The notes below the pieces were generated by a model. It saw only the letters and a list, made by a program, of their open reading frames with translations, did no database searches and was not told where the DNA came from. Source: Candidatus Altimarinota bacterium (GTDB lineage Bacteria > Patescibacteriota > Gracilibacteria > BD1-5 > UBA6164). From it: a stretch of 64,000 bases of DNA. The stretch is from contig JAOARJ010000012.1 in the NCBI GenBank assembly GCA_025210615.1, forward strand, positions 1 to 64,000, read 5' to 3'. The position numbers were made by a program, and so were the translations under genes. The first letter of the stretch is position 1, and each line of letters opens with the position of its first letter. Positions 22,777-23,734 of this stretch are shown piece by piece.

Positions 22777-22800
22777 AAACTCCTAGATTAGTAGGAGTTT
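22777..22800. terminator. Bidirectional terminator
   Basis: Perfect 9-bp stem AAACTCCTA/TAGGAGTTT with T-rich run, between convergent genes. Confidence 0.8.
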
Positions 22801-22807
22801 TTATTTT

Positions 22808-23610
22808 TTAATATGTTCAAGGAACAATTTTCCGTCTCCGATACAATGATACTCCATGAAAAGATTTTACACTTCCTGAACCATGTAAATAAGCACTAAA
22901 ATTATATCAATTATAAGAATGTGATCCAGCATAAGTAAAATTTGCTGACCGATTATTAACATGACTATAAAGTCAAAATAAATATCAATCAACTACAAAA
23001 CTGCTTCCCAGTCCTGCTCCAAGTGGTGGAAATGAATGATAAGTCTTTCCATCTGCAATAATACAATATCATAAATGAGATTGAGTTTTATAACCATTAT
23101 ATTTATCAACTCAACAATTAAATGATTTCACACATTCATTATTCTTAATTTCATATCAACTATTACAAGTTTGAACGCTACATTCTCAATAATCATCAAC
23201 TCAATTCCAAGTTTTTGTTGCTAAAGTTGTATTAGCTTTATCTGACGTACAATCTAAAACATTATCTTCACAACTTAAACTATTTTGTTCCCAATGAAAT
23301 CATTCGCTACAACTTCATAAACATTTTTTCTCTCATCAAATCACACTACATAATTCTCAAGCTACATATAATTTTCAGTTTAACTTTATATCACTAGAGC
23401 TAACATCTATTTTATCTGCTAAACTAGAAATATTTGTCCAGGTTAAGTTATCTAAAACTTCTCAGGATTTTTTATTTATTCAATTTAATGCAAAACTTAA
23501 TCAAAAAATTCACACTAAAAAAACGAATATTGAAAACAATATCCACCTTAATTTGCTCCTTACGCCTTTCTTGTGACTAGCCTTTCTTGTGACTCTTTAT
23601 TCACACTCAT
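22808..23610 (-). CDS. Exported lectin-like protein, start out of frame behind a 16-bp tandem repeat
   Basis: The main frame encodes a membrane segment (WILFSIFVFLVGIFGLSF), the family neck (SGEVLDNLTWTNISSLADKI, KLYVAG), a Cys-rich middle (CSEGFHWEQNSLSCEDNVLDC and more) and a lectin-like end (YLHGSGS, VSLYRRRKIVPGTY). It is a paralogue of 5592-6809. The frame has no ATG in its first part. The natural ATG (23608-23610) opens MSVNKESQERLVTRKA and hits TAA at 23560-23562, because it is one frame off. Between them are two copies of a 16-bp repeat; three copies would join the ATG to the main frame. So it is either switched off by slippage, a recent pseudogene, or starts at a non-ATG codon such as TTG. 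Confidence 0.65.
23564..23594. repeat. 16-bp tandem repeat, two copies
   Basis: gcctttcttgtgacta at 23564-23579 repeated at 23580-23594 (last base differs). Unit length is not a multiple of three and it lies in the extreme N-terminal coding region of the lectin-like gene, so a change in copy number shifts the frame. Confidence 0.9.
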
Positions 23611-23654
23611 AAGCCAATCTTTTATTTATAATATAATAAATACTTATATAAAAT

Positions 23655-23682
23655 ATTGTACATTTTTTTCTTTTTCTGTCAA
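23655..23682 (-). promoter_or_regulatory. Promoter of the Cys-rich lectin-like gene
   Basis: Minus strand: -35 TTGACA (23677-23682), 16-bp spacer, -10 TACAAT (23655-23660), ahead of the ATG at 23610. Confidence 0.65.
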
Positions 23683-23734
23683 GAGTAAAATCTCACTTTT
23701 TTTATTTTTTGGTTGACAAAAATTATTAATTATT

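Follow-up and report, generated by a model that had tools for sequence, protein, structure and literature searches.

A leader with two copies of a 16-bp repeat precedes surface-protein genes at six or more loci and may act as a slipped-strand switch

What brings a surface-protein gene to expression when the ATG behind its promoter runs into a stop codon in another reading frame? The question is posed by a gene on the reverse strand of the window, the whole 64,000-nt stretch of DNA analysed here, which corresponds to C5:1-64000 of a 1.25-Mb genome. TGA encodes glycine (code 25) in this genome, as only with this assignment do long frames stay open; the window surface gene contains 19 TGA codons, and neighbouring genes likewise read through TGA. 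This reassignment, the presence of the leader at five or more other loci and a predicted hairpin around its ATG were all overlooked in an earlier note on this DNA. Shine–Dalgarno (SD) motifs are nearly absent ahead of start codons (examined upstream of 60 long ORFs in the window and at L137-L142), and AAGGAG precedes the first ATG in 0/60 of these ORFs. One clear exception in this nearly SD-less genome is L140, which displays CAGGAGGTATT-ATG.

The locus is bounded on its 5′ side by a conserved box, TTTTGTCAACCAAAAAATAAAAAAAG (the GTCAACC box; 23696..23721, minus strand, as for all features below), which hardly differs among the leader loci that cover it, the sequence further upstream being unrelated. 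The promoter, TTGACA-16-TACAAT (23655..23682), has 11/12 consensus matches and is kept in all leader loci, in agreement with the earlier note, which had described it as intact. The ATG at 23610 opens a leader ORF of 16 codons, MSVNKESQERLVTRKA (23560..23610), which traverses two copies of a 16-bp repeat, AGTCACAAGAAAGGC(T/G) (copy 1, 23579..23594; copy 2, 23563..23578), and ends at a TAA (23562-23560) that is kept in all loci; this arrangement too is as originally described. The repeat is the sole perfect tandem repeat with a period of 10-60 bp in the window, and ten shuffled windows contained no perfect tandem repeat with a period above 12. An SD-like AAGGAG (23556..23561), invariant in all leader loci, overlaps the leader stop, and 13 nt past the TAA an invariant GTG (23544..23546) begins an ORF of 24 codons that is not in the main frame.

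The main frame extends from stop to stop over 262 codons under code 25 (22808..23596) and, as previously claimed, is out of phase with ATG 23610, the two being unjoined at two repeat copies. It encodes, in order, a basic stretch, a signal peptide or membrane helix, KLRWILFSIFVFLVGIFGLSFA (23489..23554), which is indicated by N/S, codon scores and a helix in a low-confidence model, a conserved neck (23315..23488), and a variable C-terminal part that is Cys-rich and then beta-rich (22811..23314). A terminator-like hairpin follows (22777..22800). The suggestion that the body is ‘lectin-like' did not hold up, as the window protein (P0001) has no Pfam or NCBIfam match and its structure model is of low confidence. 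No relative of P0001 was found in viral contigs. Its C-terminal part shows a partial match at one other place in its own genome and no match outside that genome among 98 relatives.

The number of repeat copies determines whether the ATG and the gene share a frame. In all five complete loci carrying this leader the two are joined at zero or three copies, and not at one, two, four or five; with three copies the ATG product acquires a basic n-region followed by the signal peptide, as the earlier note had proposed. Comparison of the five loci revealed no conserved ATG, GTG or TTG upstream of the signal peptide in the main frame. The candidate start in this region is TTG in three loci and is replaced by TTA and TCG in the others, while the only invariant main-frame candidate, GTG 23515-23513, lies inside the hydrophobic stretch. 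It is quite possible, if somewhat short of probable, that these genes are subject to slipped-strand switching, with the leader as a contingency element that is OFF by default and is assembled here in that state. In the two-copy state ribosomes entering at ATG 23610 would halt after 16 codons and no surface protein would be made. A third copy would arise occasionally, when the 16-bp repeats slip during replication or exchange unequally, and would bring ATG and main gene into one frame, providing the basic n-region and signal peptide; loss of the third copy would switch the gene off again. The anatomy, the frames, the paralogs and the purifying selection on the main frame are established from the sequence, and the existence of three-copy cells that make the protein is inferred. 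With the element on at least six dispersed genes of one family, a population could hold cells displaying different members.

The same 5′ cassette, extending from the GTCAACC box to the signal peptide, is located at no fewer than six loci, comprising five complete genes, among them the window gene, and at least one incomplete locus. The cassette was initially found at seven places; these were not taken as seven loci, as three carry one identical 141-bp stretch regarded as an assembly node, and the count was revised to at least six. The assembly resolves both repeat copies, the shared 141-bp node included. The identical 141-bp leader stretch is located at the start and end of C2 and the end of C10, an apparent break of the assembly at the cassette, and the body of one or more leader genes is missing from the assembly. 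The leader genes are dispersed, set among unrelated genes, and have unrelated 3′ ends; their DNA similarity to ordinary family members starts only at the neck, ∼132 nt downstream of the leader ATG. No DNA relative of the leader was found in 98 relatives, and the exact two-copy pattern was absent from the viral and genome contigs searched. The presence of the same two-copy leader on five or more sister genes indicates that it is a conserved control element, which may act as an on/off switch.

Within the genome the repeat pattern was found 14 times, always paired, and two copies followed by the same stop are present in 6/6 leader loci, with no one- or three-copy locus and no copy-number variation among the six. 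The earlier note had held that fixation at two copies would speak against switching; such uniformity is seen here between loci only, all six holding exactly two copies. The repeats nevertheless appear to turn over. In a diverged paralog, L138 (C4:250 kb), both copies bear the same three changes, whereas the other loci retain the common repeat sequence except for one base in L137. As the chance that these changes arose independently in both L138 copies is 8e-5 to 2e-3, it is likely that the repeats were homogenised, either by slippage via one or three copies or by conversion. The leader ORF of L138 also contains one in-frame 3-nt deletion.

Substitution patterns in the leader genes point to a main frame that is maintained. 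Compared across the five genes, N/S is 0.46 over the initial half of the signal peptide, 0.09 in the segment just after that half and 0.44 in the neck. Beyond the leader the main frame is therefore under purifying selection, indicating that its protein is made, now or until recently. The promoter and leader have diverged by ∼3% among four loci (6% in the −35/−10 stretch) compared with ∼30% at synonymous sites, and the block is consequently either constrained or recently exchanged. Main-frame codon scores past the repeats resemble those of canonical signal peptides. The view that the six leader genes are permanently off, or constitute a silent stock that swaps 3′ parts with expressed members by recombination, would accommodate the common 5′ block and neck joined to unrelated 3′ ends at dispersed loci, together with the out-of-frame assembly of all of them. 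It is, however, difficult to reconcile with N/S values far below 1 (0.09-0.46), with long main frames that are intact in all five complete genes and with a near-consensus promoter retained in all six loci, which show that the leader genes are not dead. We therefore regard permanent silence or storage as decidedly unlikely.

The leader RNA is predicted to fold. In the window GATTGGCTT (23619-23611) pairs with AGGCTAGTC (23583-23575), the junction of repeats 1 and 2, in a hairpin spanning 23575..23619; the 3′ arm is thus provided by the repeat junction itself. An inner pairing, TGTGA/TCACA, leaves the ATG in an internal loop. In four loci the folding z-score lies between about −2.4 and −3.2, with −3.1 for the window gene, whereas in L138 it is −1.1, not a significant excess. 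A consensus structure was recovered on five loci, including the diverged L138, in which the outer stem still pairs through two one-sided changes; two-sided covariation in the hairpin was not seen among the five. Among leader models containing one to three copies, the two-copy form is predicted to expose the AUG most. Rfam contained no credible match for the leader.

Slippage accounts for the missing start codon, the concerted repeats and the out-of-frame state. It is favoured by the joining of the frames at only zero or three copies, by the lack of a conserved canonical start, by the concerted L138 repeats and by two further family members, L021 and L040, which the assembly likewise shows out of frame, the remainder of each being intact. 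Among the published features of frame-transition classes, a tandem repeat at the transition fits phase variation (PMC3711429), and in another bacterium a repeat with a long unit is present in either two or three copies within populations (PMC12817950). The match of frames at three copies has a 1-in-3 chance and is weak evidence. Against slippage are the uniform two copies, in an array that at this length is very short, the predicted dependence of the hairpin on the repeat junction and the modelled accessibility of the AUG at two copies. Main-frame codons across the repeats fall in the lowest 0-0.5% of coding windows and look non-coding, and slippage leaves unexplained an AAGGAG placed over a stop in a genome nearly devoid of SD motifs. 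The slipped-strand architecture put forward in the earlier note thus stands with respect to its frame logic, the missing canonical start, the concerted repeats and the additional out-of-frame members, while the copy-number uniformity, the use of the repeat junction by the hairpin and the codons across the repeats tell against it.

Two copies may instead be the working state, with the leader controlling entry into the main frame, as the copy-number uniformity, the hairpin and the TAAGGAG suggest. The hairpin would present or hide the AUG. Once the leader had been translated, ribosomes terminating at the TAA, which overlaps AAGGAG, would enter the main frame through re-initiation at a non-standard start, a frameshift or a bypass. 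Such control draws support from the fixation of two copies in six loci, from a hairpin kept in five (its pairing in L138 preserved by one-sided changes), from the predicted AUG accessibility and from a TAAGGAG that is invariant although SD motifs are almost absent. The low divergence of promoter and leader and the purifying selection on main frames of genes assembled out of frame point in the same direction. For translational coupling, however, the main frame offers no canonical start close to the leader stop or the AAGGAG, the invariant GTG 13 nt away being in the wrong frame. The leader contains neither an X_XXY_YYZ heptamer nor a prfB-like site that would indicate programmed frameshifting, and no homopolymer run of ≥8 at the frame change that would permit transcriptional slippage (the longest run is T7, T6 in L138); the folding of L138 is not significant, and two-sided covariation is lacking. 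We consider leader-controlled frame entry with two copies as the working state somewhat unlikely, and the specific proposal that the RNA leader (AUG hairpin, 16-codon ORF and TAAGGAG) is a common translational switch into the other frame, with no canonical start, is unlikely. Initiation at a GTG would dispense with the ATG, either at 23546 after the AAGGAG, with a subsequent +1 frameshift in the T7 run (23523-23517), or at main-frame GTG 23515-23513. Both GTGs are invariant in five loci, and the 23546 frame surpasses the main frame in codon scores in 4/5 loci. This seeming advantage vanished once the family's canonical signal peptides were scored, as their values are just as low as those of the main frame here. 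Moreover, neither GTG yields a basic n-region, the slippery heptamers found would shift −1 rather than the +1 that the 23546 frame needs, and canonical family members start at ATG, making a GTG start very unlikely.

Comparison with known systems reveals partial likenesses. The slipped-strand phase-variable surface genes such as opa, lic1 and mod (known generally and from PMC11868660 and PMC3711429) likewise hold a repeat between start and body, with a unit that is not a multiple of 3, several loci and an intact downstream frame. In contrast to them, the leader described here has only two copies of a long, 16-bp unit, shows no variation among six loci and carries a conserved hairpin and TAAGGAG. 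Promoter tandem repeats in M. tuberculosis (PMC12817950) share the long unit and the alternation of two and three copies, but alter the promoter, not the reading frame, and their variation was shown in reads. Translational coupling or attenuation by leader peptides is similar in its short leader ORF, hairpin and stop overlapping an SD-like site, but here the main frame lacks a start codon near the leader stop. A hypervariable surface protein of a gracilibacterium (PMC6851277) is also membrane-anchored, encoded by repeat DNA and from a code-25 bacterium; it differs in that its 9-mer PTD repeats are in frame within the protein, and no frame switching was described. If slippage is correct, it adds a multi-gene surface-protein contingency system in an uncultured lineage in which expression switching is hardly documented; if frame entry is correct, a genome that reads TGA as glycine would possess an uncommon mechanism of recoding or of translation start.

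The family to which the leader genes belong is extensive. The neck occurs ∼40 times in this genome (L009-L048), with no relatives in 49 relatives or in the genome contigs searched, and the ∼40-member family is thus confined to this genome among those searched. Most members possess an ordinary ATG-KK signal peptide with no SD motif, the canonical ones beginning at ATG. The family represents a large expansion of surface proteins with a common signal peptide and neck and differing C-terminal domains (fibrinogen-like motifs, Cys-rich and others). In L021 (G000:C8:6300-8300) the frame changes at an A8 tract within the neck, and the 204 codons that remain are intact in the other frame; in L040 (G000:C9:86800-88800) a single frameshift, with no obvious repeat there, is followed by 77 intact codons in the other frame. 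Their out-of-frame assembly fits a family prone to frame changes, and could also reflect errors or pseudogenes. Of the five complete leader genes two, L137 and L138, encode the fibrinogen-like YCDxxxxGGGW domain (NF040941, GGGWT_bact) and score above its curated cut-off, whereas the window protein has no match to it. The out-of-frame remainder of L021 also carries a fibrinogen-like YCD..GGGW motif.
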